Source: Stentor roeselii
Taxonomy: Eukaryota > Ciliophora > Heterotrichea > Heterotrichida > Stentoridae
Length of the DNA stretch: 64,000 nt
Direction of reading: 5' to 3'
NCBI GenBank assembly: GCA_006503475.1
Contig: RSEH01000085.1
Coordinates: 62,001 to 126,000, forward strand
Below the pieces are notes generated by a model. It did no database searches. It saw nothing but the letters and a program-made list of their open reading frames with translations, and was not told the DNA's origin. Position numbers and translations under genes: made by a program. Below, piece by piece: positions 19,207-57,663 of the stretch; the stretch's first letter is position 1; each line of letters opens with the position of its first letter.

Positions 19207-21687
19207 TTACTTACGACGTTTAGGTTGTTCTTCAACAGCAGAAGCCCCTAAGTACTTGATGGGCAGTTGTTCTTTGGTGAAGCTTTGTCCATTTAAGCTG
19301 AAATCGAGAAGTACTTCAGTCGGAGTCAACAATTCTCCCAAGTCCGGCACCGCGACTCCAACTTTTTTCGAGTTTTTGAAAATTCCTGAGACTTGAACAG
19401 CAGAAGTGCCGAGGATGAACCTCACGATGATCTCAGGTGTTTTCATTAGACCTTCACTCCAAAGGAAAAGCTTGACGCCTGGTTTACAGGCGGTGAGCAT
19501 TGCCTGGTCTTCTTCTTGTTCTCTTTTTAGTTTCGCTTCTGGTTCTTCCTTTTCTTCAGGGTCTTCTTTTTCCCAAAGGTCTTGTTTTGCTTGTGGGGTT
19601 AAAGTTTCATCGATTTTTGCTTTTGATATGCGAAGAAGGTGGCTGTCATTGTAGAAGAAAGTGGGAAGTAAGGTGTATTCGATGCAGTTTAAAGTAAGTT
19701 CCAGTTTTAAAGGAAGTGATTTCACGTCTTTCGCCTCGAACTGCTCAGTTCCGATAAGCCAGTGAAGTGGAGGGATGACACATTGATAACATTTTAACTT
19801 ACGATCCCAATTCACAGCCACGTCTCTTTCTCCATATTGCGAAGTGATTTTCATTTTTTTCGCAGTACTATCATAAAACCCTTTTCCACATATTTTTATA
19901 TTAGTGCCCGCATCAGAAGAGCCCAGCATAGGCTTTAACTCTGAGACCTCGATATTAAAGAACTTGAAATTCAAAGGTTTTCCTGAAAACTGTTGTCCGT
20001 TAATCGATATGTCTACAACGTACCCTGAGGAGTTGTCGTCGATGTCTTCTGGGACTGGAATCTTGCAGGTTATTTTTCCGTCTTCGTACTTTCCAGCGAC
20101 CATGAGCCAGTCGTGTTCTTCTCCTCTGAGATCATTGGGGTTGGTAGTAGTGCGACTGTCATCCAAGCTCTGTTCTTTTTTTACTCGATTCGGAGTTTCA
20201 GTCCGAGCAGCTCCGCGAGACTTGGGAAGAAAGCCGACAGTTAGAAGCCAAAGCCAAGATTTTTGAATTCCTCTTAAATCTGCAGAGATTTCAAGGGTGC
20301 ATCTTCCATTAACTGAAGCGCATTTAGGGTTCAAGTTTTCTGGATGAATCTCATCAGGGTATATCAGAAATTTTCTTTCACAAGTGACGAAACACTCACC
20401 GTCCATTGTGACATCTATGAAGGCTTCACATGGTAACTGAACCTCGTCCTCATCGTCAACAAATTGAGGAGTAAAGAACTCAAGACTGTTGGAATCTGAG
20501 TCATAATCACAAGAAACTTCACTCATTAGATGTCCATATCGAAATCTTACTTTTAATTTTGAGGTATTCGCTAAAGCTGTTCCTATAATAGTCACTTTTG
20601 TACCACCTCCTGCAGGTCCACAAGAAGGTGATAATGAATAAAGTCTTAAAGGAGAAAATAGTACTAAAGATAAGTCACTTGCGAAAACATCTGAAAAACT
20701 TCTATTTTCCGTGTTGATTGAAATTACTTTAGGACAGTTTTGAATACTTTCCCCAAGATGACCGATGAACCCTTTTCCCCAAGAGTAAGAATTTCCACTT
20801 TTCCCTAGTGCAAAGCTAGCAAAAGCACAACAACAAATTTTTTCAATTTTTTCCAAATCATTTCCAACACTATCCTTAAAAACCTTAACAGGTACCCAAG
20901 TACTCTGAAAGTTTTGACATCCAAGTTGTCCATAATTATTCAATCCCCAAGTCCAAACCTCTCCATTTTCAATAAGAGCGAGTGCATGTCCAGCTCCCGC
21001 CGCGATTTCTTTGACCCTTCCATGAATATCAACAATCTTAGGTCTTTTACATTCTCTTTCCTTTCCATGTCCGAGTTGTCCACATCTTCCTTCTCCCCAA
21101 GAGTAAAGAGTTCCATCAATATCAATAGCGAAGCTAGACCTTTGCCCACAAGCGACGTTCATCACCTGCTTGCTGTAAAAGGTGTCGATGTACTTCGGGA
21201 CAGAAATAGTTTCAATTGATTCACGAATGCCCAACTGGCCTTCGTACCCTCGACCCCAGGCGTAGACTTCGCCTTGTTGGGTAAGGGCGAGGCTGTGGGC
21301 CTCGCCGCAGGCGATTTCTTTGATCACCTTGTCAGAAATCGCCTTGATCAGCGTGGCGCTTGAAGCTGATAAAGCCCCGCCGTGGCCGAGGACTCCGAAC
21401 ATGCCTTGTCCGAAAGAGTAAACGAAGCCGTCTTTCACTAGGACTAAAGTGTGGAACTTTCCGCATTTTAAACTCTTTATTTGACCAAGTTTTTGGATTT
21501 CTTCACGGTCGGATTCGCATAACTCTGTTGAACCGATTGCAGTTACTTTACCTGATGGCTCTAAGATGAATAACTTTGAGTAACCTCCTCCTATGCACTC
21601 TACGGTTTTACCGTTGAAGTAGTCGTGGGTTGAGAGAAGACCTTTGTTTGAAGAACTGCAGAACATCACTTCGCCGACTCGTGCCAT
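19207..21687 (-). CDS. RCC1-repeat and IPT/TIG-domain protein
   Basis: The 826-residue protein begins with about six RCC1 repeats (residues ~1-330) with typical blades such as EIACGEAHSLALTQQGEVYA, WGRGYEGQLG and WGEGRCGQLGHG. It continues with IPT/TIG immunoglobulin-like domains: one near residue 350 (SPSCGPAGGGTKVTIIGTAL), another near 600 (KPMLGSSDAGTNIKICGKGF), and perhaps more. The acidic/Lys segment near 720-750 is low-complexity. RCC1 propellers are often adaptors or exchange factors, but the Ran-specific role cannot be claimed. There is no kinase or HECT domain. Confidence 0.88.
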   Translation of the reverse strand: MARVGEVMFCSSSNKGLLSTHDYFNGKTVECIGGGYSKLFILEPSGKVTAIGSTELCESDREEIQKLGQIKSLKCGKFHTLVLVKDGFVYSFGQGMFGVLGHGGALSASSATLIKAISDKVIKEIACGEAHSLALTQQGEVYAWGRGYEGQLGIRESIETISVPKYIDTFYSKQVMNVACGQRSSFAIDIDGTLYSWGEGRCGQLGHGKERECKRPKIVDIHGRVKEIAAGAGHALALIENGEVWTWGLNNYGQLGCQNFQSTWVPVKVFKDSVGNDLEKIEKICCCAFASFALGKSGNSYSWGKGFIGHLGESIQNCPKVISINTENRSFSDVFASDLSLVLFSPLRLYSLSPSCGPAGGGTKVTIIGTALANTSKLKVRFRYGHLMSEVSCDYDSDSNSLEFFTPQFVDDEDEVQLPCEAFIDVTMDGECFVTCERKFLIYPDEIHPENLNPKCASVNGRCTLEISADLRGIQKSWLWLLTVGFLPKSRGAARTETPNRVKKEQSLDDSRTTTNPNDLRGEEHDWLMVAGKYEDGKITCKIPVPEDIDDNSSGYVVDISINGQQFSGKPLNFKFFNIEVSELKPMLGSSDAGTNIKICGKGFYDSTAKKMKITSQYGERDVAVNWDRKLKCYQCVIPPLHWLIGTEQFEAKDVKSLPLKLELTLNCIEYTLLPTFFYNDSHLLRISKAKIDETLTPQAKQDLWEKEDPEEKEEPEAKLKREQEEDQAMLTACKPGVKLFLWSEGLMKTPEIIVRFILGTSAVQVSGIFKNSKKVGVAVPDLGELLTPTEVLLDFSLNGQSFTKEQLPIKYLGASAVEEQPKRRK

Positions 21688-22250
21688 ATGTTTATTTGAA
21701 TATATTGGTTTAGAGAAGGATTTTTAGATTTTTGGATGGATTTGGAGATCGTGGAAGAGGGTTGTGGAGATTTAGAGATTGGAGAGGGAGGGTTGATAGA
21801 GGATTTTGATTTTTATTGGTGGATGGTTTAATAGGATTGAATGAATGATTCTTGTATGGTTTAAGAGGATGTTATCATATTAATCATTTTTGTATGATTA
21901 GACTGGATTAATTAGCTGAATCACTCTTAAGGTTTAATCAGGATAATATCATTATAATAATTCTTCCATATTAAACAAGGATAAAATGGACCTGATGAAA
22001 ATTTAAATTTGGATAGAAACACTTTTTTCATAATTTTCTGTAGATTAAATCTCCATCGAAAATCTTTAAAAATCTTCAAACTCAAGATATCCTCATCCTG
22101 ATTAACTAAAACCCAAAAGCTACTCACAAATTCTAAATAATCCTAATCTTTTCAAACACCTTGAAGTAAAAATTATATTTAAGACCGACTCCGATATCAC
22201 TAAACTCTTACAAAGTAATAGAAATTATTCCAAACAATGGCTGTAAATAA
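21688..22250. other. Divergent intergenic region
   Basis: This 563-nt region holds the promoters of the RCC1 and first metallo-beta-lactamase-fold genes. The left ~150 nt are G-rich on the plus strand and the right ~150 nt C-rich, so each gene has a C-rich, G-poor 5' flank on its own sense strand. No gene is seen. Confidence 0.7.
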
Positions 22251-22991
22251 ATGCTAACATTAATAACCTGGCTAAGCCATTCGACCTTCAGGATCCAGAC
22301 ACCAGACCCCGTGACAAGCCAACCAAGAATAATTTATATCGACCCCTGGCGAGCATCCCCAAAGTATCCTGAGTCTGAAAAGATCATCGAAGATGCAGAC
22401 GTCATTCTGGTGACTCACGGCCACTTTGATCACTGCACTGACGCCCCATTGATAAGCCAAACGACAGGAGCTTCAGTTGTTTGCTCTTGGGAATTGCAGA
22501 GCTATATGCAAGCTAATGGCGCTGCGAGCATCATTGCTTTGAACAAGGGCGGCAGTATTGATCTTGGATATGTTGAAATCACGATGGTCTCTGCTGATCA
22601 CTCAGGGGATACTCTTGAAGGAGGGTTCAACGGAGGGTTTCCTTCAGGATTTATTTTGAAGTTTAAGGACGGGTCTCCTACTTTGTATCATGCTGGAGAT
22701 ACGAATGTCTTTGGTGATATGAAAATTATTAGTGATCTTTATGCCCCACAAGTTGCTTGCTTGCCGATTGGAGGAGTTGTTACCATGTCTCCTAGAGAAG
22801 CTGCCTATGCTATTAAGAACTTTTTATTTTCAGTCAAAACGGTACTACCCATGCATTACTTAACTATTCCATTACTCGCTGGAACCCCTGAACAGTTGGT
22901 AGAGTTTTTGGATGAACCTCCTAAAAAATCAAAGGTTAAAGTGAAAAATTTAGTTATTGGGCAGGCTGTTCCTTTAAATTCATTAGTTTAG
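22251..22991 (+). CDS. Metallo-beta-lactamase-fold hydrolase, UlaG/UPF0173-like (copy 1)
   Basis: The 246-residue protein has the HxHxDH metal site (VTHGHFDHC), the downstream His (SADHSG), the bridging Asp (YHAGDTNVFGDM) and the final His (PMHYL). The layout matches UlaG/UPF0173-type hydrolases; their substrates are mostly unknown. Relative to copy 2 it has changed conserved loop positions (GGVVTMSP for GGHYTMGP; MHYLTIPLL for MHYGTFPIL) and may have shifted specificity. A six-codon upstream ORF (22237-22257) overlaps the start codon. No intron is present. Confidence 0.9.
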   Translation: MLTLITWLSHSTFRIQTPDPVTSQPRIIYIDPWRASPKYPESEKIIEDADVILVTHGHFDHCTDAPLISQTTGASVVCSWELQSYMQANGAASIIALNKGGSIDLGYVEITMVSADHSGDTLEGGFNGGFPSGFILKFKDGSPTLYHAGDTNVFGDMKIISDLYAPQVACLPIGGVVTMSPREAAYAIKNFLFSVKTVLPMHYLTIPLLAGTPEQLVEFLDEPPKKSKVKVKNLVIGQAVPLNSLV

Positions 22992-23150: not shown

Positions 23151-23891
23151 ATGCTAACTTGGCTTAGTCACGCCTCCTTTAAAATCCAAGTCAACGATCC
23201 TCAATCAGGAGAATCAAAAATTCTTTACATAGACCCTTGGTTCGGTAGTCCTGTTTGTCCAGAGTCAGAGAAAAATCCAGAAAAAGCCGACTTAATTTTA
23301 GTGACTCACGGTCACTTCGATCACTGCAACGATGCGCCAGGTTTAAGTGAAAAGACAGGAGCGCCAGTAGTTTGCAACTATGAATTAGGAATTCACATGG
23401 AAGCTCAAAAGGCGAAGTCAGTGACTAGCATGAACAAAGGAGGAACTGTGGACTTTGGCTGGGTCTCGGTCACTATGGTCGGAGCTGATCACTCTGGAGG
23501 TTGTTTTGAAGGAGGAGTCTCTGGAGGACATCCTGCTGGTTTTGTGATTCACTTCAAAGATGGAAGCCCGTCTGTTTATCATGCTGGGGATACTAATGTC
23601 TTTGGGGATATGAAAATTATCAGTGATCTTTATGAACCGAAGATAGCTTTATTGCCGATTGGAGGACATTACACCATGGGACCCAGAGAAGCAGCCTATG
23701 CTTTAAACCAATTCTTGAACAGTGTTCAAACAGTGGTCCCGATGCACTATGGAACCTTCCCAATCCTCAAAGGAACCCCTGAAGAACTGATAAATTTCCT
23801 CGGGAATACATTTAGACCTGAAGGCCGAAATGTTAGAGTTGCAACCATGTCATATGGTCAAACTATTCCTTTGAGAGATTTGTCTAACTGA
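23151..23891 (+). CDS. Metallo-beta-lactamase-fold hydrolase, UlaG/UPF0173-like (copy 2)
   Basis: This 246-residue tandem paralogue of the upstream gene is closer to the family consensus. It has VTHGHFDHC, GADHSGG, YHAGDTNVFGDM, LPIGGHYTMGP and VPMHYGTFPIL, so all metal ligands are present. It should be a two-metal hydrolase of unknown substrate. A four-codon upstream ORF (23135-23149) ends one base before the start codon. The spacer between copies is 159 nt. The family is widespread in bacteria and archaea, so ancient transfer is possible but not shown. Confidence 0.92.
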   Translation: MLTWLSHASFKIQVNDPQSGESKILYIDPWFGSPVCPESEKNPEKADLILVTHGHFDHCNDAPGLSEKTGAPVVCNYELGIHMEAQKAKSVTSMNKGGTVDFGWVSVTMVGADHSGGCFEGGVSGGHPAGFVIHFKDGSPSVYHAGDTNVFGDMKIISDLYEPKIALLPIGGHYTMGPREAAYALNQFLNSVQTVVPMHYGTFPILKGTPEELINFLGNTFRPEGRNVRVATMSYGQTIPLRDLSN

Positions 23892-31051: not shown

Positions 31052-31433
31052 TGTTTTTTGGATGGTTTTGGATTGAGGGATGGTATAGATTAATGAGAGA
31101 TAATTAAGATATTTTATTAGATGAGAGAGAAGGGAATTTGGCTTGATATTTTAAGTTTTATATATTAATGTCTATTCCTTGCTATGGTGACAAAGAATAT
31201 AATCAAGATACATTTAGTTAATACAGTATATTTTATCAATGCTATCTGAATAGGACTATAATATTGTAGGTAAAAGAAAATGTTTTGTATCTTAAAATTA
31301 TAATTAATTCAAAACTAGTCAAATAGATTAAAGTTTAGTCTTATTAAATAAGTAGGAATAAACTTATAAAGTATATTTATAAGTATTATTCATTGGGTCG
31401 TTATTCATATTATAAAGAAATACTTATTCTAAT
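31052..31433. other. Convergent intergenic region
   Basis: This is 382 nt of A/T-rich sequence between the stops of the giant kinase and the otubain gene. The first 90 nt are G-rich on the plus strand. No gene is seen. Confidence 0.6.
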
Positions 31434-32411: not shown

Positions 32412-33431
32412 TTACTAAGTATAAAATGTAGATGATTAGTTTAAGTAATTTAAATAAACTTGGTAATAATCATATGAATATTGTAATATTATGATAATAT
32501 TCCAATATTTTCTTAACTATCATGAGGAAAACATATAAGGCTATGTCTCTGAGTCATTATGGGCTTTTGCAAAGTTTTTGGATAAATTTTCCTCATAAGT
32601 AGTCTAAAGATGCAAATCTATTCATTTTTTAGTTATAGTTGATTAATTTTCGTTAATTAAATTAGTATTCGAACTCTTATGATTTCAATTTTAAGTATCT
32701 TATAAAGATTTTTCATTTTCATTAATGGTTTTAAGTATATTTATTCATTTTCGAAATGTCCTCTGTGTAAAATTTAAAGAAGGCTGCGCTACTACAGATC
32801 TTTTCATCTTAAGAGAATTTTGCTTAGTCTCCAAATTTTTTTATAGGGATTTGAACTATAAATATTCTTTTCATCTAAAAATTTTAAGGTATTGGCTATA
32901 CTCGATTCTATATTTTCTAACCCAATTTTGATTTTTAATTGTTTTCAATGATATTTAAGTCAGTCTTGAACAGTTTAATAATGCTTGTGCATAAAACTAA
33001 TTAATTCACTGAAACTTAAATCGAATTAATGCGTGTTTAAATATAGTTAATTGTTTATAAATGACTCGAGATTGCATTTTCATTACTTTTTATTGTTTCT
33101 GAGGTAATCTGTTTACGTTTTACAATTGATTTATTAGGATGATTCATTATTGCATTAGTTATAATTTATCATTTTTGACACACGAAATGAAGATAAACTA
33201 CTTGAATACTTATCTCCTTCAAGAAACACCTTGAATCTAATTTATAACTATACAAAAAACTACTAAATTAAATAAAAATTAATCCTCCGACCAATTTCTT
33301 AGTTTAAAAGAAAAATAATAAAAATCTTAACAATCCTACAATAAAATCAAATTTCCCTTCCATCACCCAACCTTAAACAAATCCCCCACTCTCCTTCCAC
33401 TCCACTATCCTAATCTTATAATAAAAACAGA
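32412..33431. other. Long divergent intergenic region
   Basis: This 1020-nt A/T-rich region separates the otubain and Ulp1-fold start codons. A 68-codon ORF at 32725-32931 is Phe/Tyr/Leu-rich and composition-driven; I do not accept it. The last 190 nt before 33432 are C/A-rich and very G-poor. No tRNA or other RNA gene is recognised. Confidence 0.65.
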
Positions 33432-34439
33432 ATGTCCTCACATTACCAAGGAAATACGAAAAAACGTGACCCAGGAGTAGACAATTTTTCAGTAGCATCA
33501 ATAGCAGAGTCTCAAACCAAGACTCACAACGAGATATCTTCCCCCTACGGTAGAATCTTCCGAAAAAGCAACATTTACGCGTCAATGATTCCGAACTTTC
33601 TGAAGCAACAAGAGCCAGTAAGAGGAATAACAGTAGACGACCTAAGAAGACTCGAGATCCAATCACAGCCGAAGTTCGATCTCGACATTTGCGAAATAAA
33701 CAGCGAGAGATTCCAAGCGAAATTCACTTCATTAATAGAAGAAATTCGTCGCACCTACTTCTTACCCGAGACAAACCCGCGAGACGTGGAGCAGGTTCAT
33801 TCGATGCTGAATGAAATAGTCCGTCGAAACTACAGCCAGATTCGTTTGTCGATAAAAAAATGGGAAATCACTGGCGAAGAGCTTTACAAACTACTTAACA
33901 ACAGAGATATCAACGTCAAGATCATCAATGCTTTCATGCAACATTTGAAACAATTTAACAGATTTCTTATCAAAAAAAGCAGAACTTCTTCGAAGTTCAA
34001 TTTTATTTCTGTGGAATTGGCTGAACTTATATTGATTAAAGGTGGTCTTAAGAAAATACCGAACTTGGGGTTGAATACTTTTGACTTTCATATCTTTCCC
34101 ATTTTTCATCATTATTGGAAACTTGTGGTTTATGCCACTGCTGAAGGGAGTATCAAGGTCTATGATTTGGGAAGAAATTGCAGTGATCGCGTCATGTATA
34201 AGGAAAACCTTGAAAACTTCGTCAAGTTCAATGAACACAATTTAGAAAGTATTAGGGTTGAAGAGATACCCAAAAAAGGAATTAATCTTTGGAATAGTGG
34301 ACTTTATCTGTGCAAAATGGCACAAAATTTGATTAATCGCACTGAGGACTTGCATACCAGTGAAGATATTTCTGAGTTTAGGATCGAGATTCTTGTGGTA
34401 TTGCTTAGGCTTAGTCAAATCAATTTCATTAAGACCTAA
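33432..34439 (+). CDS. Ulp1/SENP-fold (C48) protein with degenerate active site
   Basis: The 335-residue protein has a C48 fold. Its substrate-groove segment is WEITGEELYKLLNNRDINVK followed by IINAFMQHL, and the catalytic core follows. In Ulp1 the His, Asp, Gln and Cys lie at relative spacings 0, +17, +60 and +66. Here the matching positions are Y228 (HHYWKLVVY), D245 (YDLG), G283 and S289 (WNSGLYLC). So His, Gln and Cys are all replaced and only Asp remains. The fold seems intact, so a pseudoprotease that binds SUMO or another ubiquitin-like protein is the likely role. The USP gene follows on the same strand. Confidence 0.85.
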   Translation: MSSHYQGNTKKRDPGVDNFSVASIAESQTKTHNEISSPYGRIFRKSNIYASMIPNFLKQQEPVRGITVDDLRRLEIQSQPKFDLDICEINSERFQAKFTSLIEEIRRTYFLPETNPRDVEQVHSMLNEIVRRNYSQIRLSIKKWEITGEELYKLLNNRDINVKIINAFMQHLKQFNRFLIKKSRTSSKFNFISVELAELILIKGGLKKIPNLGLNTFDFHIFPIFHHYWKLVVYATAEGSIKVYDLGRNCSDRVMYKENLENFVKFNEHNLESIRVEEIPKKGINLWNSGLYLCKMAQNLINRTEDLHTSEDISEFRIEILVVLLRLSQINFIKT

Positions 34440-40692: not shown

Positions 40693-41158
40693 TAATTTTA
40701 TAATCCAAGAAGCAAGTCTCTCATGATGCTTAATAATAGAATAGGATGATTATTTAATCTATGGAAGATTTTTTTGATTTTTGTGGGGTGTTATTTTGAG
40801 GAAATTTACTTTTATAGTCTTGAATCTATTTTATTAGCTTTAGAGTAGGCTTTATTAGTCTTTTTGAATATAAAGTCTGTGATTTTGCGATATTTAATTA
40901 TGATTGAATTTAATGATTGTAAGAACTTTCAGTTAGAATCTAATTAAATACTCCTTATTATAAATGTCAAAATTTCAGTAAACTTCCCAATGCAAAGAAG
41001 ATAATAAACATTCTTTACTTGAAATACTCAAATTTTCACTAAAATGTTGGATATTTGATTTCTAAACTTAAAAACATCCAAAGAAGACCATAAAAAATCA
41101 AATAACTTTCAACTAATTTCTTAATCCTTTCAAGACTTTAAAGTGATTAATTAAATTA
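40693..41158. other. Convergent intergenic region
   Basis: This 466-nt region switches from G-rich near the FCP1 stop to C-rich near the kinase stop on the plus strand. This is the pattern expected if 3' flanks are G-rich on the sense strand of each gene. No gene is seen. Confidence 0.65.
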
Positions 41159-43417: not shown

Positions 43418-44080
43418 TCAATCCTGCTTAATTCGGCTCAAGTACTTTTGATTCCCAATAAAAATCGCTTTCAAAGTATTATCTTCATAATCCAAAACCC
43501 TTCTCTTCTTCCTATCAACATTCCAATTCGCTTCCTCAATTTTCCTCTCAATCTCCTCAAGTTCGGTATCATTATCCATACAAAAGTATTCCTGATTGAC
43601 CCGACTTTTCAAAATCTCCAAATTTTTCGTAGGTCTGACAGGTGCAGGTCTAGTTAAAAACTCTCTAACTCCAGGTAAATCCTTCGCAGCTCCATAATAA
43701 AGATACCCTTCAGCTCCAGGTATTTCCTGCCCTTGCATATCAACTTGCCTGACAGTGACTTTTTTGAAGTCCGGTCCTCCAAGTTGCCTGATTCTATCTT
43801 CCCAAAGCGACTTTTCCCTGAGTAGTTTGTTTATCTCGTCGTTTAAGGCTCGCACTTTGTGCTCGCCGAGGGCAGCGTTTTGAATGTCAGTGATGAATAA
43901 GGCCATCTCGTACATTATCTGGTATCGCCAGGACATGCACTCGCTAAGACTGTCAGTGTGGAAAGGGTTCTGAGGCCGACGGGTCAACTCGCCGAGGGCC
44001 ATTTCACGTTTCATGTTGACCCAACGATTTAGCATTGCCTGGACTTTGTCTTCTCCTGGAGGTGGTTTTTTCTCACCCAT
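43418..44080 (-). CDS. ISY1: Splicing factor ISY1 homologue
   Basis: The 220-residue protein carries the ISY1 core MSWRYQIMYEMALFITDIQN with AALGEHKVRALNDEINKLLR and WEDRIRQLGGPDFKK. ISY1 belongs to the NineTeen complex and sits near the first-step spliceosome active site. The C-terminal helix region (NWNVDRKKRRVLDYEDN style) is also family-like. In a genome with 15-nt introns, core spliceosome parts are of special interest. The start is the ATG at 44080. Confidence 0.93.
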   Translation of the reverse strand: MGEKKPPPGEDKVQAMLNRWVNMKREMALGELTRRPQNPFHTDSLSECMSWRYQIMYEMALFITDIQNAALGEHKVRALNDEINKLLREKSLWEDRIRQLGGPDFKKVTVRQVDMQGQEIPGAEGYLYYGAAKDLPGVREFLTRPAPVRPTKNLEILKSRVNQEYFCMDNDTELEEIERKIEEANWNVDRKKRRVLDYEDNTLKAIFIGNQKYLSRIKQD

Positions 44081-44194
44081 GGTTTATTGCAAGATGAAAG
44101 GATTTTAGGAAATTTTTAGTTTTTGTGAAGGAAGGTTTTGTATTGATTTTTAGGAATGTTGGAAGAAGAGAATTTTTGGGTTGGAGTGTTTAGG

Positions 44195-44548
44195 TTAGGA
44201 TTCTGATAATGATTTCATTATTTTCAAGTGGTTTAGAAGGCTGGGAAACTGGTCGCTTTCGTCGGCTGGCTTGTCCCAGTTCCAGTATCTGAGATCTGAA
44301 AATGATCCGGTTACTCGAAGGTCAGTCGCTCCTTCGGATATTAGACCTTTTATTTGATCGGGCAGTTTTATTTCTTGACCTTGGAGCTTTCTTCCTAATA
44401 ATGAACCTTCGCTACCGTCTGGAATGTAACCTTGTGAAGTGACTTCACCATTGAAATCGATTATACAAGGCAAAAACTTTACTTGCTTTTCTGATAGTTC
44501 GCTAAATTTTATAGTTCCTATTTTCATCGGTTTATTATCGCAGTGCAT
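44195..44548 (-). CDS. RNASEH2C: Ribonuclease H2 subunit C
   Basis: The 117-residue protein matches the RNase H2C beta-barrel: VKFLPCIIDFNGEV, a central SLLGRKLQGQEIKLP (family form FRGRxLxGxxVxLP) and the C-terminal WNWDKPADESDQFPSLLNH. RNase H2 removes ribonucleotides from DNA; subunit C is non-catalytic and holds subunits A and B together. The family's acidic insert is missing, making this a compact version. The ATG at 44548 is used; another in-frame ATG at 44527 is possible. Confidence 0.88.
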   Translation of the reverse strand: MHCDNKPMKIGTIKFSELSEKQVKFLPCIIDFNGEVTSQGYIPDGSEGSLLGRKLQGQEIKLPDQIKGLISEGATDLRVTGSFSDLRYWNWDKPADESDQFPSLLNHLKIMKSLSES

Positions 44549-44892
44549 GCATCAAACCAGATTATCATATAAATCTCTCTCAAAGAGCAACAGCAAAAGT
44601 GTCTCCAAAAACTAAACCCGCCTAACCCATATTCGATAAACCTATTCAAACTACCGAAATCTTTCCCTCTAAACCCAAGTAATAATTCAATTCCTTAAAT
44701 CTCTACAAACATAAAATAATCTACATCTAAGCACTTAAACTACTGATTTTCAGTAATTTCTCCAAATCTTTCCAAACTCAAAGCAATTCACAGATTTTCC
44801 AACGATTCCAAATCGTTTCAGTAGTTTTCCATGCGAGCGCCCTATTAAAATGTCTAATTTTCTAATCTGACCAGAACGACATAAATATCGAA
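44549..44892. other. Divergent intergenic region
   Basis: This 344-nt region lies between the RNase H2C and TPR-like gene starts. It is C/A-rich on the plus strand with few G. No gene is accepted. Confidence 0.6.
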
Positions 44893-45642
44893 ATGAAATT
44901 CCAGAATAAAGGCAAATCAAGCCACAACAAACCTTCTGACCCAGAGGCTCCAGAATATTTGAAAGACTTCGACAACAGTCTTCCATTACCGAAAGGAAAT
45001 TCGCCTTATGCCTTGGCGAAAAGGGCGGAATACATACACAAAGACTTAGAACTGGCGAAGCTCTACTACCAACAAGCAATAAAGCAAGGAGACCGCGTGG
45101 AAAGTGCGATCAAGGACATTGCAAGCATCCTTCATCAACTTGGGCAAACATCCCAAGCATGCCAATTTTTATCAGAACATCAGAAATTTTTCAAAGATCA
45201 CAAAAGATTCGAAAACCTGCTGTCAAGCCTCCAGCGGCAAATCGTCCCATCTGAAAACTGCTTGAAACGCATACTGAAACTCTTCCCAGTCGATGAACTT
45301 GCCAAAGAACAAGACGTGAGAGTTCTTTTTAAAAATGTCTCCAGAGTTCTTGAAATGGAATTCCACTATCACAACAATGTCCGATGCGCTTTTTTGAAAT
45401 TTCAAAGTCATTCTTCAGCGAGAAAAACGTTGGAAGGACTTTTGAACTGGGATAATCATCGAGTTGAGTGGGTCTCTTGCCAGGAACTCGAGGATATCAA
45501 GAACTTGGAATTTTGGACTTTCGCTTTGGACACTGCTCAGCCTGCCCTGTCCAGAGGCACTTCTACTGATGAAGATACGGCGAAGAAGTTGATTGGCATG
45601 GAATTGTTCGTGGCTTTGAACGAAGACAATCAGTCTTCATAA
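44893..45642 (+). CDS. TPR-like helical protein with possible RRM-like tail
   Basis: This is a 249-residue protein. Residues ~40-115 form paired helices of TPR type (AKLYYQQAIKQGDRVESAIK, DIASILHQLGQTSQACQFL). Residues ~145-195 look like a small alpha/beta fold with RRM-like spacing (RVLFKNVSRVLEMEF, then CAFLKFQSHSSARKTLEGL). I cannot name the family. An RNA-related adaptor is possible, but this is inference from the fold pattern only. Confidence 0.75.
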   Translation: MKFQNKGKSSHNKPSDPEAPEYLKDFDNSLPLPKGNSPYALAKRAEYIHKDLELAKLYYQQAIKQGDRVESAIKDIASILHQLGQTSQACQFLSEHQKFFKDHKRFENLLSSLQRQIVPSENCLKRILKLFPVDELAKEQDVRVLFKNVSRVLEMEFHYHNNVRCAFLKFQSHSSARKTLEGLLNWDNHRVEWVSCQELEDIKNLEFWTFALDTAQPALSRGTSTDEDTAKKLIGMELFVALNEDNQSS

Positions 45643-45978
45643 TAATTTTCTTAGTATATTCTTTGATAGCAGAAAAAATAGTGTTTTTGGAAGTTTGGTT
45701 TTCCATCATCCTTTTTACGATTATTTTTTAAATTAAACTATGGAAGATGGAAGAGTAGCTCGGGTGGAAAACTGAGGAAATGAGGATGGGATTAGAAAAG
45801 GAAGAAGAAAAGAGGAAATGAAGAGTTGAGGATGAAACTTTGGAGATTAGGGTTTAGAAGTTTTAGAGGTTGAAGGTAGGAAGATTTTAGACAGTTATTT
45901 TCATTCTTTGAATTTTTTGATGTCTAGAGCTGAGTTTCTTAAAAGGTTATCTTTCACTGTATTTAAACTTAATTATCC
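45643..45978. other. Convergent intergenic region
   Basis: This 336-nt region is strongly G-rich and C-poor on the plus strand, especially 45740-45900, with GGAAG/GAGG repeats of low complexity. No gene is seen. Confidence 0.6.
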
Positions 45979-47397
45979 TTATTGAGTATTTCCAAACTTC
46001 TTGGTAATAATGTCTTTGCTTTTGGCCTGGAACTCCTCTACTGAGAGAGGAATTTCTTCGATGTCTCCTTCATCCATGAGGTTATCGCTCTGTAAGAAAT
46101 TATTGATGATTTCATTCATCTTCCCTACGTCCTTTTCATCGAGTCCAGCTACCATCGGAACTTTGGCTCCCTTCTCATAAGCGAGATGAGTGAGAAGAGA
46201 ACTGAGATATTCTTCGAGTTCTCCTAAATACTGCTCTACATTCTGCTCATTCACCACAAAACCTTCATCCTTCGTGAGTTTTTTGTTAAACTCCAAGGTA
46301 AACTGACACTCCTCAAACTCTTTCAGCATTTCCTCAACAGGTTCTTGAATCGAGCTGATTTCTTCTTTCAAGTTCTCAATCGCAGTCAATGTCGCCTGAT
46401 GTTCTGAGTTCAACTCCTGTATCTGATTGTTTAATTCAGAAGCCACTGCAATATTAGAAGACTTTTCTTGATCCAGTAGGTTTCGGAGCTGGTCATAGTG
46501 TTTTGAAAGGTACTGATACCGTTCTTCAAGCGCGTCTAGTTCTGTATTGAGGCTGTTAACATAGCTATAAAGTGTATAATGCTGTTCTTCTGACTTAATA
46601 AATGCAGTCACTATTTCATCTATGTCATCAATTCCAGTCGCTTCTCGTATCTGGTTGAAAGCATCTGAAAGAATGCGAATATTCTTATGATATTGATCTA
46701 CAATCGCTTTTCTCTCTTTACAGGCTTGCACCCATTTCTTGTGTAATGCTTCTAACACCTTATGAGGGTCCACTGCGTCTTCATGACCTGTCTGCCCGCC
46801 AGGACTAATTAAAGTATTAGCGATTTCCTTAACAGCAGCATTTTGTTTTTTCCTATCCTCCTCAATCACATTCTGCATGACACTGAACTGATCCTGTAAC
46901 TTGGCAATGTCCTCTTCAGCCTTAGCTTTAAGTTTAAGCATTTTCATCTTATACTTTTCCTCAATCTTCGCCCCTTCCACATGTTCCCTGTTGCACTTTT
47001 CAGCTTCTTTCGCCTTTTCAGCAAGTTCTTTTTCCATACTCTGAAACATTTCAAGATAAGCTTTTTTTTCGCGCCTTAAAACATTGATGGCTTCTCTCAA
47101 GTCTTTATTTTTTGCTTGAATATCATTTAACTTTACCATTTCCTTCTGAAGGTTGTTTTCTAAAGTTTTTATCTTAAGTTCCAACTTTTTCTCTTCTTTG
47201 ACTGAAGGCAACTTGGCCTGAAGCTCGTCTTTTTTTTGCTTGACTTCAACAGTCATTGACTTGACTTGCTCATCGAGGCTTGCGTTGCGTCTTCGTTGTT
47301 GTTCGAGCTTATGAGTGAAGTTGTCGACTTCTCGTTGAAGACGGTCGCTTTCACTTTCGAGTAACCGTGACTTTCCTAAGGACTGGTCTCGTGACAT
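45979..47397 (-). CDS. Outer dynein arm docking complex coiled-coil protein (ODAD1/CCDC63, DC2-like)
   Basis: The 472-residue protein is almost all coiled coil. The diagnostic region near residues 250-295 reads IREATGIDDIDEIVTAFIKS, then EEQHYTLYSYVNSLNTELDA. It matches the DC2 family (CCDC114/ODAD1 and CCDC63), which ties outer dynein arms to doublet microtubules. The acidic C-terminal segment is also typical. A ciliary role is expected. The ATG is preceded directly by TATAA, and the 5' flank is almost free of G on the sense strand. Confidence 0.88.
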   Translation of the reverse strand: MSRDQSLGKSRLLESESDRLQREVDNFTHKLEQQRRRNASLDEQVKSMTVEVKQKKDELQAKLPSVKEEKKLELKIKTLENNLQKEMVKLNDIQAKNKDLREAINVLRREKKAYLEMFQSMEKELAEKAKEAEKCNREHVEGAKIEEKYKMKMLKLKAKAEEDIAKLQDQFSVMQNVIEEDRKKQNAAVKEIANTLISPGGQTGHEDAVDPHKVLEALHKKWVQACKERKAIVDQYHKNIRILSDAFNQIREATGIDDIDEIVTAFIKSEEQHYTLYSYVNSLNTELDALEERYQYLSKHYDQLRNLLDQEKSSNIAVASELNNQIQELNSEHQATLTAIENLKEEISSIQEPVEEMLKEFEECQFTLEFNKKLTKDEGFVVNEQNVEQYLGELEEYLSSLLTHLAYEKGAKVPMVAGLDEKDVGKMNEIINNFLQSDNLMDEGDIEEIPLSVEEFQAKSKDIITKKFGNTQ

Positions 47398-48152
47398 TTA
47401 TATGGATTTGAATCTTTGAATTCGAGCAATTTGGAAAAGTGGAAGAGAAGAATGGGTTGGAAAAGGGTGATGGAAAAGGAGAGAGAAATTTAGAGGATTT
47501 ATTATTTTGTTTTTAGATGGTTTTGGAATTTTGGCGAGGATTGCAGGATGATTGTATTTTTTTGGGGGTTTTTGAATAACTGAAAATAGGGATTTGGATT
47601 TGGAGTTGATTTGAAGAAGTTTGGTTAGAGTTGATTAATTCGGGTTGGTTTGGGTGAGTTGGGGGAGTTAGGAAAGAGTTGGAAAGAGGGTGATTATTTC
47701 TGGTAATAGATAGATTATTGTTGATCAAAGTGATTTATGTTTGATTATGTATTAGTTTTTTAGGTAGTGTTATTTATTCTTAGAGTATATAAAAGATAAT
47801 CATTGAGGATTCTAGATGATTGATCAATATTCTATTTCTCCAAAAAAATCTTACTGAAATAGTGATCCTAAATCTCTAAAATCTTATAATCTCAAGTCCT
47901 TAAAACCCTAACTTCAGGTCCTTTCCTCAAAACCAAAACTACTCAGTGAGACCCAATCCTCCAAACCCACATAACTAAAAAAACATAAAAATTTATAATC
48001 CAAATCTCTACCTTCTCAAAAAACTCTCTCTTCAAACCTAAACCCAACAAAACATCTCAACCCATTCATCTTCCCACTTTTCACCTAAAAAACCTTCCAA
48101 TATTTTAAATAAAAAATCCTATAACTACTCACATCCTAAATTCCATATAAAT
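47398..48152. other. Divergent intergenic region with extreme strand asymmetry
   Basis: This 755-nt region lies between the ODA docking and Myb genes. By hand count, 47401-47520 has 3 C and 37 G on the plus strand, while 48001-48120 has 39 C and no G. Each gene thus has an almost G-free 5' flank on its own sense strand. A frame at 47513-47728 has no ATG and is rejected. Confidence 0.8.
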
Positions 48153-48713
48153 ATGAAACTAACTCAAGATAAAGACAGTTCCCCAGATCTTCTCAGCCTG
48201 ATGCAAAACTCAAACCTGCTTCTTCTGGCATCAGAGGTAAACAAAACCGACAAAATAAAACACCACAAATACTGGACTTTAGAAGATGATGAAAAACTTT
48301 CTCGAATCGCAAAAGAAAATAATTACGATTGGAAAAAAGTCGCTGAAGAGTTTCAAGGCAGGTCAGTTTCAGATGTTGAACAAAGATGGAGACACAGAAT
48401 CGATCCAAGCACAAGAAAAACTGCTTGGACTAAGGAAGAGGACCAAATCTTGCTAATGATGCATAAAAGATTTGGAGGGAAGTGGAAAATCATTGCAAAC
48501 TACTTGCCAGGAAGACTGTCAAGTAGTGTTAAAAACAGGTTCTATGGGAAACTTTTCAAACAACAGCCGAAACAGCCAAAAGCTATCAGTCAGAAAGAAC
48601 ATTCGATGATTGAGGAAGATGATGAACTGATGATTGAAAGTCTTCTTGACCTGAGTGATAATGAATCTGTCAGCTCTGGAAGCACTTCTTGTATGAGTCA
48701 CAGTTATCTTTAA
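48153..48713 (+). CDS. R2R3-type Myb/SANT DNA-binding protein
   Basis: The 186-residue protein has two Myb repeats. The first is YWTLEDDEKLSRIAKENN then WKKVAEEFQGRSVSDVEQRW. The second is AWTKEEDQILLMMHKRFG then WKIIANYLPGRLSSSVKNRF. Tryptophan spacing fits DNA-binding Myb repeats, so a transcription factor is likely. The tail is acidic/Ser-rich and could activate. The start ATG follows TATAAAT, and the 120 nt before it contain no G. Confidence 0.92.
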   Translation: MKLTQDKDSSPDLLSLMQNSNLLLLASEVNKTDKIKHHKYWTLEDDEKLSRIAKENNYDWKKVAEEFQGRSVSDVEQRWRHRIDPSTRKTAWTKEEDQILLMMHKRFGGKWKIIANYLPGRLSSSVKNRFYGKLFKQQPKQPKAISQKEHSMIEEDDELMIESLLDLSDNESVSSGSTSCMSHSYL

Positions 48714-49101
48714 TTACAATACATAAATTAATTTAAAGTACTTTGCGTTTAGATTTGGATTTTCGGATAAAAAATGAAACCGCTTTTTACCCATTTTAAT
48801 GGTCTTTTTATTTACTTGGAAATTTGAAAAGTTCTGAAAAAGGGATTTGAGGATTTTTAGTTTGGGATTTTAAAAGAATCAATGAGAAATTTATGGGGGT
48901 AAGTATGAATTTAGAGTAAGGGTTTTTAATGAGGAATGTGAAAGTCAGAAAACATTGGATTTTGGATATTGAAGTCTTGTTATCGAAAGTGAAATATTAT
49001 TGATTTTTTATGTTTATTATATTGGGTTTATATCTTTAGAAGTTTTCATATTAATTTGAGAAAAAACTATGAAGAATAATTGAATTTATTATGCTTTAAG
49101 A
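48714..49101. other. Convergent intergenic region
   Basis: This 388-nt A/T-rich region is mostly G-rich and C-poor on the plus strand. No gene, repeat or RNA is recognised. Confidence 0.6.
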
Positions 49102-49998
49102 TTAGTAATTGCCTTTTGTTGGAGTTTTCATACTTATTTGAGAGATATCAGAAATATCTGAGATCAAAGATTCATTATAAATCTTATAATTCAGATAATC
49201 TTTTACTTTTCTCTGTACCGAATTATTTAGCCCATAAATCAAAAAATTAAGGAATCCATGAAAATTCCTCACAATTCCAGCAATCAAGGTAAATTCAAAC
49301 TCTCCAATTTTCGGAAAAAACAACTCAAGGATAGCTTTAACAGTATAAGGCAAGTAGCATAAAACAATAATCAACGGATAAAACAACATCTTATTCTTCA
49401 TTTTCGTTCTCACTTCTTCATTTTCCACTCCGATTAAATCCCTGCTGATTTTTGCCCTAATCTTCAAATAAACGACAAAATTGACAGGAATCAAGACCAA
49501 AACAGGTCCAAACAGCAAACAATCCCTGATTTCAACAAACCGATCCTGAATCCAGCACCATCCTTGAGTCCTTCCATAAGTATTCCCCTGCACCACCAGC
49601 GGAACTACTGTGCAGACAACACAAAAGGCCATCAAGCAAAAGAAACATTTATAAATCGTCTTGATTTCCAGTTTTTTGCTCTTTTTCAATGCAAAATATA
49701 ACAAAAAGGCCATCAATGTAGTCCAGATAATGCTTCCTAGAGTTGAAAAGTTGAGTAGCATCGCTTGAATCAAACATTGAGATGAATGGTCTGATGATGA
49801 ATAAGTTGGGATTAGAAAAGAGATCGAGTTCAGTAAATCCAGTAGAGAAAGAATCACTATCATTTTAAATGAAGTGTTTCGCAAGGCTTTGAAACGAAGG
49901 AACATTAGGAGGATGAAGGAACAGCCTATGAAACTTAGAATGCAGGGACCCATGATTGAGTAGTAAATGATTTGACGATCTTTTTGAGATAGGATCAT
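49102..49998 (-). CDS. Seven-helix GPCR, cAMP-receptor-like (class E/CRL type)
   Basis: The 298-residue protein has seven hydrophobic helices and short loops. The paired cysteines expected in cAR-like receptors are present, at SSQCLIQA before helix 3 and GWCWIQD in the second extracellular loop. The helix-3 stretch LNFSTLGSIIWTTLMAF also fits. Helix 7 ends FLNFLIYGLNNSVQRKVKDY, typical of this group. The ligand is unknown. The cytosolic tail is Ser/Thr-rich and may be phosphorylated. The start ATG is preceded by TATAA. Confidence 0.85.
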   Translation of the reverse strand: MILSQKDRQIIYYSIMGPCILSFIGCSFILLMFLRFKALRNTSFKMIVILSLLDLLNSISFLIPTYSSSDHSSQCLIQAMLLNFSTLGSIIWTTLMAFLLYFALKKSKKLEIKTIYKCFFCLMAFCVVCTVVPLVVQGNTYGRTQGWCWIQDRFVEIRDCLLFGPVLVLIPVNFVVYLKIRAKISRDLIGVENEEVRTKMKNKMLFYPLIIVLCYLPYTVKAILELFFPKIGEFEFTLIAGIVRNFHGFLNFLIYGLNNSVQRKVKDYLNYKIYNESLISDISDISQISMKTPTKGNY

Positions 49999-50124: not shown

Positions 50125-50748
50125 ATGATTTCACCTATTCCGCCTGCTTATTCGATTTCTAAAGCCAAGCCCGTTGTTTTTGAAAATAAAGTGCCTGGCC
50201 CTGGAGAGTACAATAGTGATAACATTTTCAAATCAAATCCATGCACATTCTCATTTTCTAGAAGCCCCCGAAAGCTTCATGATCTGTACCAAGTTCCAGG
50301 TGTGGGTCTTTACTCTCCAAACGACATGCGCAAAAGCTCAGGATACAGCATAAGTCGTAGTCCTCGCATCCTAAGCAATGTGAGGATAACTTCTCCAGGG
50401 CCAGGAGACTACAACTATCAATTCTTTGAGAAACGATATCAATATAGCATTAGCAAAGCAAGGAGATCATACAACTCGACATTAGTTCCAGGTCCAGGTT
50501 CATACACCCCGAACATAGACTCAACATTTGAAAGCTCTCCCAGAGTCCAGTTTGCAAAACAGCCTCGAATGCCAAGAGATCACTTCTTGACTCCAGCGCC
50601 AGGACAATACGAAATATCAAGACAAAGGCAAAGCGGATACACTATACCCAAAGCATCAGGAAAGTCCAAGATTTCAGACACTCCAGGTCCAGGTAATTAC
50701 CAAACTCCTCAACTGATTGGATACGCTTCTTTAAAATCCAAACTATGA
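50125..50748 (+). CDS. Sperm-tail PG-rich repeat (STPGR) protein
   Basis: The 207-residue protein is built from about six repeats with P-G-P-G-x-Y cores: VPGPGEYNSD, VPGVGLYSPN, SPGPGDYNYQ, VPGPGSYTPN, APGQYEIS and TPGPGNYQTP. Repeats also carry SISK/SISR-type strands. This family (ODF3/SHIPPO/CIMAP) binds microtubules, often inside axonemal doublets. A ciliary or cortical microtubule role is likely. There is no other domain. Confidence 0.92.
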   Translation: MISPIPPAYSISKAKPVVFENKVPGPGEYNSDNIFKSNPCTFSFSRSPRKLHDLYQVPGVGLYSPNDMRKSSGYSISRSPRILSNVRITSPGPGDYNYQFFEKRYQYSISKARRSYNSTLVPGPGSYTPNIDSTFESSPRVQFAKQPRMPRDHFLTPAPGQYEISRQRQSGYTIPKASGKSKISDTPGPGNYQTPQLIGYASLKSKL

Positions 50749-50986
50749 ATAATCTTAATTCGAATTATATAAACCTAATTTAATTCCATTTCTCTCACAA
50801 AATCTTTAATATCTTCCATCATCTCAACCTAAAATATAAAAATTTCTCTAACAGCACAATTTTTCAAAATATTCAAGAAAAAAACCAAAAACCTTTCTAC
50901 TCTAACAAAAATCAATCAATTTCTTAAAAATCCTTCAAAGATCAATTAAATCCCGGCAGTCCAAATCTAAATCATCAGTCAAATAA

Positions 50987-51496
50987 ATGGCTGCCCGTGT
51001 CTATTTTGACGTAAGTATCGGAGGATCACCTGCAGGAAGGATCGAGTTTCAACTTTACAGTGAAACCCCGAACACTTCTGAAAACTTCAGAGCTCTTTGC
51101 ACAGGAGAGAAAGGAATGGGAAGAGCTGGAAAACCTCTTAATTACCGCGGGTGCGGGTTCCATAGAATCATTCCACAGTTTATGCTGCAAGGAGGTGACT
51201 TTACCAGAGGAGATGGAACTGGCGGTGAGAGCATCTTCGGTGAAAAGTTTAGAGACGAGAATTTCATCAAAAGACATACCAAACCTGGACTGCTGTCGAT
51301 GGCTAATGCCGGACCTCACACCAATGGCTCACAGTTCTTCATCACCACTGTTCCTTGCCCTTGGCTTGACGGAAAGCATGTCGTCTTTGGAGAAGTCACG
51401 AGTGGCATGGAAGTTGTCAGGCAGATCGAAGCGCAAGGCACCAGTCAAGGAAGACCTAGAGTACCAGTTGTTATCACTCAGTGTGGCCAGCTTTAA
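50987..51496 (+). CDS. Cyclophilin-type peptidyl-prolyl isomerase
   Basis: The 169-residue single-domain cyclophilin resembles cyclophilin A in length and sequence. It has [20 protein letters not shown] (catalytic Arg, Phe, Gln), [17 protein letters not shown] and [12 protein letters not shown] (Trp binding cyclosporin). There is no signal peptide, so it should be cytosolic or nuclear. Its insert [15 protein letters not shown] is a divergent-loop type found in plants and protists. The 5' flank is G-poor and the 3' flank C-poor. Confidence 0.97.
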
Positions 51497-51755
51497 TTAG
51501 TTATTCAGGTTAGAAGACTTTTATTTGAAGTTTTTGAGGATTTGGAGAATTATTGGTTTTTTAGAGGTGAGAAATTTATGGGTTTGGAAATTTTTTTAAA
51601 TTGGGCGAATTTAAGTTGTTTTAAGGGGTTTTATTATTTGTTATTAGAGCTTTGAGGATGATTTCTTTTAGTTTGATTGGAGAATTGTAATTTTTTGTTT
51701 TGGGTTTAAAGTAATTTTCAATGAAATGAGAATTTTTGACCATTATTTTAGTTAT

Positions 51756-56223: not shown

Positions 56224-56439
56224 GTTAAAATTTAAAAGTCTCGTGCTTGAGAGTAGCGATGAGTAGAGAATATCTAAAAAAACATGAAACAATTTTTAAT
56301 TTTTCTTTAATATCTGACATAATATTCAACCCTAACCAAAAGAAACCAAATTAATTAAAGTTCTTTCAATAAAAGTTCTTTCAAATAAAGTCTCAATCTT
56401 CCCTCCTCTAAATAATCTTCTATATTACCCCAAAACAAT

Positions 56440-57663
56440 CTAAGCATAATAATTCAAGCTACTCTTCTTCTTGGCCTGCACCTGCGCAACACCCTCAACA
56501 TAATCCTCATGTCCAATCCTTTCCGCCCCTCTCTTCAACGCCAACATTCCAGCCTCAACACAAACCGCCTTAAGCTGTGCTCCATTAAAATCATCAGTAC
56601 TTCTTGCAAGTTCCTCGAAATTGACATCTTCTTTATCATAGTTCATTTTTCTTGAGTGAATTTGCAAGATCCTGATCCTTGCTTCCATATTTGGATGAGG
56701 AAACTCGATTTTTCTGTCAAGTCTTCCTGACCTCAACAAAGCCGGGTCGAGAATGTCAGGCCTGTTCGTTGCAGCGACCACCTTTATTCGATCATCGCTT
56801 GAAAAGCCGTCAAGTTGATTTAATAGTTCAAGCATCGTCCTTTGTACCTCCCTTCCACCTGCAGAGTCGGCATCGTGTCGCCTGGCTCCTACTGCGTCAA
56901 GCTCATCGATGAAAATAATCGTTGGAGCCTTTTCCCTTGCAAGGGCAAATGCGTCTCGGACCATCTTGGCACCGTCTCCGATGAACATCTGGACAAGCTG
57001 AGGTCCTGCGAGTTTCAGAAAAGTAGCTGATGTTTGAGCTGCGCAAGCCCTTGCCATCAAAGTTTTACCTGTTCCAGGTGGTCCATACATCAAAAGTCCT
57101 TTCGGAGGACGAATTCCGATGTTATCAAATCGTTCTTTGTGAGTCATCGGGAGGACAATCGCTTCCATGAGTTCTTCAATTTGTTTGTCAAGGCCCCCGA
57201 TGTCGCTGTATCCTTCTGTTGGCTTCTCGTCGAGCTCCATGGCTTTGACTCTAGAGTCATACTCGGGTGGTAGTGTGTCGAGGATCAGGTAAGAGTCTTT
57301 GTTCACTCCAATCAAATCGCCGGGCTTCAGAGTTTCCACGTCCACCAAACCTGGAACCGGCAAAAATATCGTCTGACGAGTGCTGGTCTTTATTGCCACT
57401 GCTTTCGATGTCGTCTTTGAACCTGCTTCTTCATCTTCTTCTGAAATTTCTAGGATTTCGATCACGTTTGAGACTAGGTAAGGAAGTTGTTTACTCATTT
57501 TCAGCTTTTCAAGGTTCTCGTTTATTTTTGGACGCAATTTTTGAGTATTAGAGTTAGCTAGGTTGTACTCTCGTTGTAATACTCGTATGTTGCTCTCGAA
57601 GTTGCTGATGCGGGTTTTGAGCTGATCATTTGAGAATTCTTTCGGATCGTCCGAGGCTGACAT
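56440..57663 (-). CDS. PSMC3: 26S proteasome regulatory ATPase Rpt5 (PSMC3)
   Basis: The 407-residue protein matches Rpt5 along its length. It has an N-terminal coiled coil, the OB segment ([20 protein letters not shown]), [20 protein letters not shown], Walker A GPPGTGKT, Walker B IIFIDELD and [15 protein letters not shown]. It ends in the HbYX motif YYA, which docks into the 20S alpha ring to open the gate. The first in-frame ATG is 57663, preceded by TATAAAA. PSMA1 is in the same window. Confidence 0.97.

Follow-up and report, generated by a model that had tools for sequence, protein, structure and literature searches.

What makes the plus strand of a spacer between two divergent genes run from a G-rich, C-poor tract into a C-rich, G-poor one, and is the pattern peculiar to one place? 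The question is raised by positions 47398–48152 of the window, as the whole 64,000-nt stretch of Stentor roeselii DNA analysed here is called (Table 1). The first-pass annotation had counted C and G in four 120-nt blocks of the plus strand, and its counts were exact on recount: C3/G37 at 47401–47520, C39/G0 at 48001–48120 and, on the two sides of the cyclophilin gene, C25/G3 at 50821–50940 and C3/G30 at 51501–51620. The G-to-C flips that it named in four spacers are likewise real, with z values against mononucleotide shuffles of 26.5 for 47398–48152 (change point 47822), 14.2 for 21688–22250, 11.8 for 2827–3281 and 5.2 for 40693–41158.

The analysed DNA amounted to about 288 kb of the parent assembly (44.4 Mb, 522 contigs) and comprised the 64-kb window, 20 contig starts, 7 gene loci and 16 contig ends. 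Genes were modelled from sequence without RNA by an intron-aware finder built for this analysis, which superseded an earlier gene set, obtained by merging ORFs, whose averages were weaker. Genes with fewer than 240 coding nt were excluded as spacer neighbours, as were spacers shorter than 60 nt or above stated upper limits. Contigs L025 and L034 were excluded from the flank counts in the final averages, the composition classes and the reruns with stricter gene sets, because their inner ‘genes’ are subtelomeric repeats; they were kept in the tract scan, the fourfold profile, the split by thirds of fourfold GC, the orientation-class counts, the flip scores, and the TATAWA, ATG and word counts. 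The two contigs share these subtelomeric repeats (L025:919–2233 and L034:806–2100), which are arranged in tandem and are rich in C on the strand that runs away from the telomere. Loci L001–L014 and L035–L042 enter no count.

The gene models follow the standard genetic code, with long ORFs stopping at TAA (34), TAG (23) and TGA (13; n = 70), and have an A-rich context around predicted start codons. The 16 predicted introns of 15 nt, of the form GTA...A(10)...AG, are joined by one of 16 nt; introns of 15–16 nt are described in Stentor coeruleus (PMC9505925, excerpt). Together with the telomere repeat CCCTAACA at contig ends, these introns and this code are what a Stentor-like heterotrich would show. 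Divergent genes at 15239/15257 in the window have predicted start codons just 17 nt apart, and several further spacers are shorter than 40 nt.

Table 1. Genes and skewed tracts in the window, with plus-strand base counts of the tracts; GC4, fourfold GC of the flanking genes.
Feature	Positions	Strand	Basis
G-rich tract (G44/C3), 5′ flank of minus gene 547–2826	2832–2986		tract scan
G-rich tract (G49/C3) filling divergent spacer; GC4 left 0.41, right 0.23	4122–4334		tract scan
C-rich tract (C41/G4) filling convergent spacer and running into right gene’s 3′ end; GC4 left 0.23, right 0.32	8410–8587		tract scan
G-rich tract (G61/C2), 5′ flank of minus gene 19207–21687	21690–21871		tract scan
C-rich tract (C30/G4), 5′ flank of plus gene 22251–22991	22051–22160		tract scan
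G-rich tract (G31/C1), 3′ flank of plus gene ending at 31051	31053–31170		tract scan
C-rich tract (C63/G7), 5′ flank of plus gene 33432–34439	33209–33447		tract scan
G-rich tract (G48/C5), 5′ flank of Isy1-like minus gene 43418–44080	44081–44245		tract scan
C-rich tract (C59/G10), 5′ flank of plus gene 44893–45642	44603–44814		tract scan
G-rich tract (G55/C4), 3′ flank of plus gene 44893–45642	45742–45890		tract scan
ODAD1-like coiled-coil gene, left partner of divergent spacer	45979–47397	−	gene model; Pfam PF21773, E 3.8e-30
G-rich, C-poor tract (G119/C9), outward from minus gene’s 5′ end	47433–47822	read on +	scan score 96.5
Flip, G-rich to C-rich	47822–47867		change point 47822
C-rich, G-poor tract (C88/G7), plus gene’s 5′ flank	47867–48165	read on +	tract scan
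Myb-like DNA-binding gene, right partner	48153–48713	+	gene model; PF13921, E 1.7e-27
G-rich tract (G63/C10), 3′ flank of 48153–48713, covering most of convergent spacer	48818–49111		tract scan
C-rich tract (C49/G5), cyclophilin 5′ flank, filling tandem spacer	50726–50954		tract scan
Cyclophilin gene	50987–51496	+	PF00160, E 2.7e-48
G-rich tract (G56/C5), cyclophilin 3′ flank, filling convergent spacer	51508–51738		tract scan
C-rich tract (C82/G16) covering 3′ flank and 3′ end of coding sequence, minus gene 56440–57663	56290–56566		tract scan

Outward strand bias at gene ends

On the strand that leads away from a gene, at its 5′ as at its 3′ end, G tends to outnumber C; this is an average and not a rule for every gene. 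Outward skew had a mean of +0.217 in 5′ flanks (63 positive, 21 negative, 1 zero; n = 85, p 3e-6) and of +0.122 in 3′ flanks (44 positive, 20 negative, 3 zero; n = 67, p 0.006); the sign was wrong or the value zero in 22/85 and 23/67, respectively, and 7% and 10% lay at −0.5 or below. An earlier cut of the data gave +0.20 (n = 84) and +0.15 (n = 68), with no difference in strength between the two ends (p 0.67). The description of sense-strand 5′ flanks as nearly free of G and 3′ flanks as nearly free of C thus holds as an average tendency and fails as a feature of each gene, an outward skew of at least 0.5 being reached by 24% of the 85 5′ flanks and 15% of the 67 3′ flanks. The label ‘orientation-dependent’, under which the skew had been reported, is misleading, since a gene in either orientation tends to have C on its left and G on its right when the plus strand is read. 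Taken outward, 5′ and 3′ tracts also use similar words (3-mer rho 0.82, with 0.58 for the reversed words that served as the control).

With outward G at both gene ends, spacers read on the plus strand tend to run from G-rich to C-rich in every orientation class. The left side was the G-richer in 46 of 60 spacers and the right side in 12, with left/right counts of 9/3 for ++, 11/3 for −−, 15/4 for −+ and 11/2 for +−. Within the window the rule held for −+ (9/2) and +− (6/1), the counts for ++ (3/2) and −− (3/1) being too few. Best-flip scores favoured G-to-C over C-to-G in 37/47 spacers (p 4e-7, pooled), and the sign was kept in stricter gene sets (for example, 21 against 5 of 28 spacers). Confinement to the window, the circumstance named at the outset as speaking against a general rule, did not hold, as the left side was G-richer in 25 and the right side in 6 of 32 spacers on the 20 other contig starts.

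A scan of 21 stretches (264 kb) for C-poor G runs and G-poor C runs returned 173 segments, against 24.8 per local shuffle; 101/173 are mostly coding, where codon use adds skew, and 72/173 are not. Of the strong noncoding segments, 31 had known genes to left and right, and these lay nearer the gene end predicted by the outward-G rule in 22/31 cases (16/19 at 5′ ends and 6/12 at 3′ ends) and nearer the other end in 9/31; nine more strong noncoding segments sat at an edge. Strong tracts outside the window include L022:5582–5829 (G73/C7), L022:7796–8037 (G68/C5) and L030:2738–2958 (G73/C9), as well as L028:12–205, 194 nt with G81/C0, whose left neighbour is off the contig and whose next gene is 137 nt away. 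The last of these opens with GGATGGAG/GGATTGAG-like repeats. Chance, or an artefact of assembly or gene calling, is a scarcely credible source of all this: the gene models are self-made without RNA and some small ORFs are doubtful (44195–44548), but change-point z values run as high as 26.5, strong tracts far outnumber those of local shuffles even though many are mostly coding, the sign is stable in stricter gene sets and many genes have Pfam matches.

Flank G+C stays between 0.245 and 0.286 across all skew classes while, with rising skew, C falls from about 0.13 to 0.04–0.05 and G rises from about 0.13 to 0.21–0.25, so that base pairs are turned round, not lost. Cytosine deamination alone, which predicts a drop in G+C with skew, was rejected for this reason. 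The excess of T over A increases with that of G over C (rho 0.48 in 5′ and 0.42 in 3′ flanks), and the outward strand is G+T-rich (keto), not purine-rich.

The G:C bias spills over from the flanks into fourfold sites at gene ends. On the sense strand, fourfold skew was −0.30 in codons 0–20 and −0.25 in codons 20–40, lay between 0 and −0.09 deep inside genes, and was +0.13 and +0.14 in the last 40 codons; the first and last 60 codons differed with a paired p of 0.019 (53 genes). With genes divided at the sample terciles of fourfold GC, 0.25 and 0.32, the skew was −0.04, −0.24 and −0.39 in the first 30 codons and +0.13, +0.33 and +0.07 in the last 30. The 3′ coding effect thus does not track fourfold GC.

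Dominance between neighbouring genes

Two gaps that the first-pass annotation had singled out as exceptions for one partner are real, with G49/C4 in 4113–4330 and C23/G4 in 8399–8514. Both were won by the neighbour with the higher fourfold GC (0.41 against 0.23, and 0.32 against 0.23) and fit dominance by that neighbour. As the stronger neighbour tends to set the sign of the spacer, a weak gene may carry a G-rich sense 5′ flank; gene 4331–8398, beside a stronger neighbour, has a 5′ outward skew of −0.78.

The sign across a whole spacer tends to be set by the neighbour with the higher fourfold GC, an observation that is new here. Outward skew rises with a gene’s own fourfold GC (rho 0.45 at 5′ ends, n = 81; 0.26 at 3′ ends, n = 66), and in spacers of 60–600 nt the difference between the neighbours in inner fourfold GC correlates with spacer sign at rho 0.63, the signs agreeing in 30/41. 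The correlation was 0.65 in the window (n = 22) and 0.55 on other contigs (n = 19); by class it was 0.69 for −+ (n = 15), 0.45 for +− (n = 10), 0.68 for ++ (n = 7) and 0.77 for −− (n = 9), and was not significant in the +− and ++ classes alone. Other limits on gene length and gap gave rho 0.44–0.63 (28–49 spacers), and inclusion of L025 and L034 gave 0.66 (n = 42). Gene length and codon score did not predict spacer sign, and the GC of codon positions 1–2 predicted it weakly (rho 0.32, p 0.03, n = 46). In 17 spacers with a skew of at least 0.3, the winner’s nearest 40 codons were skewed alike (+0.21, p 0.04), with no clear sharing by the loser’s (+0.11, p 0.5). A counter-example is 48714–49101, with a skew of +0.52 and fourfold GC of 0.27 on the left and 0.35 on the right.

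Fourfold GC may stand in for some form of gene activity, as a proxy that is unproven. It was tried on eight genes at seven loci (three tubulin, two H3 and three L7Ae-family genes), drawn from 23 tubulin, 31 H3 and 9 L7Ae-family matches. Fourfold GC was 0.20–0.31 in the tubulins, 0.27 and 0.39 in the H3 genes, and 0.32–0.41 in the L7Ae-family genes, which are of ribosomal type. The H3 gene in L046 has strong tracts on both sides, with C0/G19, C0/G20 and C1/G19 in 60-nt blocks of its 5′ flank and C13/G0 in a block of its 3′ flank; the three L7Ae-family genes, with 5′ flanks of 20, 56 and 134 nt, had no strong skew in 60-nt blocks inspected by eye. The Pfam names of 30 proteins, from 20 genes of high or middle and 10 of low fourfold GC, gave no clear split by expression, as judged from the names.

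Candidate causes

The explanation that we favour, tentatively and at somewhat less than an even chance, is a gene-anchored, strand-asymmetric substitution bias whose strength varies by gene and whose sign in a common spacer is imposed by the stronger gene. Each gene would polarise its flanks and outer codons, chiefly in their G:C pairs and to a lesser degree in their A:T pairs, making the outward strand G+T-rich; the source may be mutation or repair that treats the two strands unequally, either close to gene ends or during transcription that heads outwards. The strength of this bias would differ between genes, and in a common spacer the stronger gene would impose its sign. Substitution bias, which is a likelier driver than selection on RNA, is supported by outward G at both ends, G-to-C flips in all orientation classes, constant G+C, fourfold spill-over and dominance, and the same anatomy is published for unicellular fungi (PMC3315797, excerpt). 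Against it stand the weaker 3′ side (6/12 tracts, compared with 16/19 at 5′ ends), a 3′ fourfold skew that does not grow with fourfold GC, and the flanks of wrong or zero sign (22/85 and 23/67). Transcription-associated bias is usually a G+T excess, and the 5′ coding skew, with C over G on the sense strand, is opposite to it, which counts against the substitution bias. The ciliate germline micronucleus is described (excerpts) as transcriptionally silent; if it is so here, mutations tied to macronuclear transcription should not be inherited, which also counts against substitution bias. Three tandem related genes at L021:568–6240 (arrestin-like where scanned) were considered for polarising substitutions and proved uninformative, the third being scarcely alignable upstream (identity 0.49–0.50); the first two are 0.93 identical, upstream included.

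Selection on RNA or transcription is possible, if on the unlikely side: G-free, unstructured leaders and 5′ codons would serve initiation, and C-free, G/T-rich trailers would serve termination. In variants of it, R-loops would be avoided at 5′ ends and favoured at 3′ ends, or avoidance of C would keep polymerases apart, the adaptive idea of PMC3315797 (excerpt). The rise of 5′ outward skew with fourfold GC, the fourfold skew of −0.39 in the first 30 codons of the top third and a TATA-like word at 47786–47795, close to the flip of the flagged spacer, would suit such selection, as would a silent germline that disfavours inherited transcription-linked mutation. The earlier proposal that a G-free leader excludes upstream ATGs and splice sites is not borne out, because the ATG deficit is not specific to the 5′ flank. 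Sense ATGs numbered 95 in the nearest 100 nt upstream of starts, against 119 expected from composition (ratio 0.80), and 159 against 201 at 250–600 nt (0.79), with ratios of 0.92 at 100–250 nt and 0.83–0.92 in 3′ flanks; moreover, the C-poor trailers mirror the 5′ effect, and start-codon avoidance cannot account for them.

The length of the tracts also counts against selection on RNA. The 25 strong 5′ tracts reach out to 114–492 nt from the start codon, with a median of 228, whereas UTRs elsewhere in ciliates are short: about 10 and 49 nt in Halteria (PMC7858049, excerpt), 8–44 nt for 5′ UTRs in Nyctotherus (PMC2633312, excerpt) and a mean of 53 nt for 3′ UTRs in Loxodes. If UTRs here are alike, the tracts would lie mostly outside the mRNA. 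Some tracts run into coding ends (8410–8587 and 56290–56566), and the sign tends to follow the stronger neighbour, as at the weak gene 4331–8398. Counts of TATAWA were flat over the edges of the 25 strong 5′ tracts (raw counts, no shuffles), and k-mers around 24 flips were weak, with TCATCA in 9 against 2.1 expected; no motif is claimed, and a TATA or other motif at the flip was rejected.

Telomeres offer a further comparison. Contig ends carry the repeat CCCTAACA, which the telomere unit of Blepharisma matches (PMC9942806, excerpt). At 18 telomere-capped ends (L025, L034 and L050–L065), outward skew at 20–150 nt was +0.20 and positive in 14/18 (p 0.003). DNA fragmentation and telomere addition could make each spacer a potential chromosome end, as in nanochromosomal ciliates: outward G-rich 3′ ends have telomere polarity, leaving the left side of a gene C-rich and the right side G-rich, in the related Blepharisma the sites of potential alternative telomere addition number 46,705 (PMC9942806, excerpt), and spirotrichs have a known subtelomeric strand bias (PMC7858049, PMC3558436 and PMC1805493, excerpts). 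We regard this origin as improbable, given that 16/18 capped ends are without a gene model of at least 150 coding nt within about 650 nt, that just 2/18 reach a skew of 0.5, and that the tracts have no excess of telomere 6-mers (23 against 41 in shuffles at 5′ ends, 13 against 14 at 3′ ends). Decayed telomere repeats were rejected as the origin of the tracts because telomere words are not enriched. The strong tracts are internal to contigs, unlike a bias that abuts the telomere. Spacers as replication origins were rejected on sign alone, a typical origin giving C-rich then G-rich sequence, the opposite of that seen; in bacteria the leading strand is G-rich (PMC3315797, excerpt).

A wider formulation, which we consider doubtful, has an outward G+T strand field around every gene, mirror-symmetric about it and of a strength particular to that gene, with neighbours competing for the spacer. 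If the germline is silent it should not record transcription-linked mutation, and such a field would have to stem either from somatic function under selection or from some germline process aimed at gene ends, for which developmental transcription, replication and breakage are candidates.

Relation to known skews

The pattern is of a known kind, being a strong heterotrich-ciliate form of opposite GC skews at gene 5′ and 3′ ends. In unicellular fungi the coding strand is C-biased at 5′ ends, G-biased at 3′ ends and intermediate mid-gene, and the skews extend to promoters, 3′ UTRs and fourfold sites; the 2011 report left mutation versus adaptation open and found very weak correlations with expression (PMC3315797, excerpt). 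The Stentor pattern shares C over G at the 5′ end of the coding strand, a weaker G over C at the 3′ end, the inclusion of fourfold sites and the fading mid-gene. It differs in that T/A co-varies with G/C, whereas AT skew, an accompanying trait rather than part of the definition, is largely constant in fungi, and in that C or G is nearly absent over 100–390 nt in single spacers, the fungal values being species averages whose strengths are not numerically comparable (PMC3315797, excerpt). Dominance by the neighbour with higher fourfold GC is not reported in the excerpt of PMC3315797, and the host here, as a ciliate, keeps its germline and its soma in different nuclei.

In plants and some fungi, C exceeds G around transcription starts (Fujimori 2005; PMC555766, excerpt); more than 70% of Arabidopsis genes lie above 0.33 in a 100-bp window, and the skew is strong in most rice genes too. 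The excess of C upstream of start codons is thus alike and strong there as well, but that skew is centred on mapped transcription starts, with no mirrored 3′ effect named in the excerpt, whereas ours was measured from predicted start codons.

Mirror-image strand bias at both ends is also shared with the subtelomeric regions of Halteria, Nyctotherus and Oxytricha. Prescott and Dizick reportedly described subtelomeric strand bias in ciliate gene-sized chromosomes in 2000. Halteria has GC skew at the coding-strand 3′ end, with the ends of the two strands similar in composition (PMC7858049, excerpt), the bias in Nyctotherus is purine-rich with low G at the 3′ end (PMC2633312, excerpt), and that in Oxytricha has a periodicity of about 10 bp (PMC3558436 and PMC1805493, excerpts). 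According to these excerpts, that bias abuts telomeres over about 50–130 nt and is purine-rich in Nyctotherus and spirotrichs, whereas the G+T-rich tracts here occupy internal spacers of multi-gene chromosomes and reach up to 390 nt.

A literature search, weak on subscription papers, returned no report of the pattern in heterotrichs among the matches listed; what is new is the constancy of G+C, an A/T skew that moves with the G/C skew, and neighbour dominance. Because ciliates split the transcribed from the inherited genome, strong skews in them can help to separate mutation from adaptation. Neighbour dominance is a quantitative prediction that is checkable genome-wide, and the tracts may aid gene finding in gene-dense ciliate genomes.

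Transfer RNA genes, intended as a Pol III control, were scarce: ARAGORN found one in the window and none in the 20 other stretches, and the window had no Rfam match. The candidate, tRNA-Glu (TTC) at 44222–44302, has no Rfam support at the gathering threshold and overlaps the doubtful 118-aa ORF 44195–44548 (minus strand). Elsewhere in the window, the tandem metallo-beta-lactamase-fold genes 22251–22991 and 23151–23891 are 68% identical in DNA over 529 nt, a local duplication.
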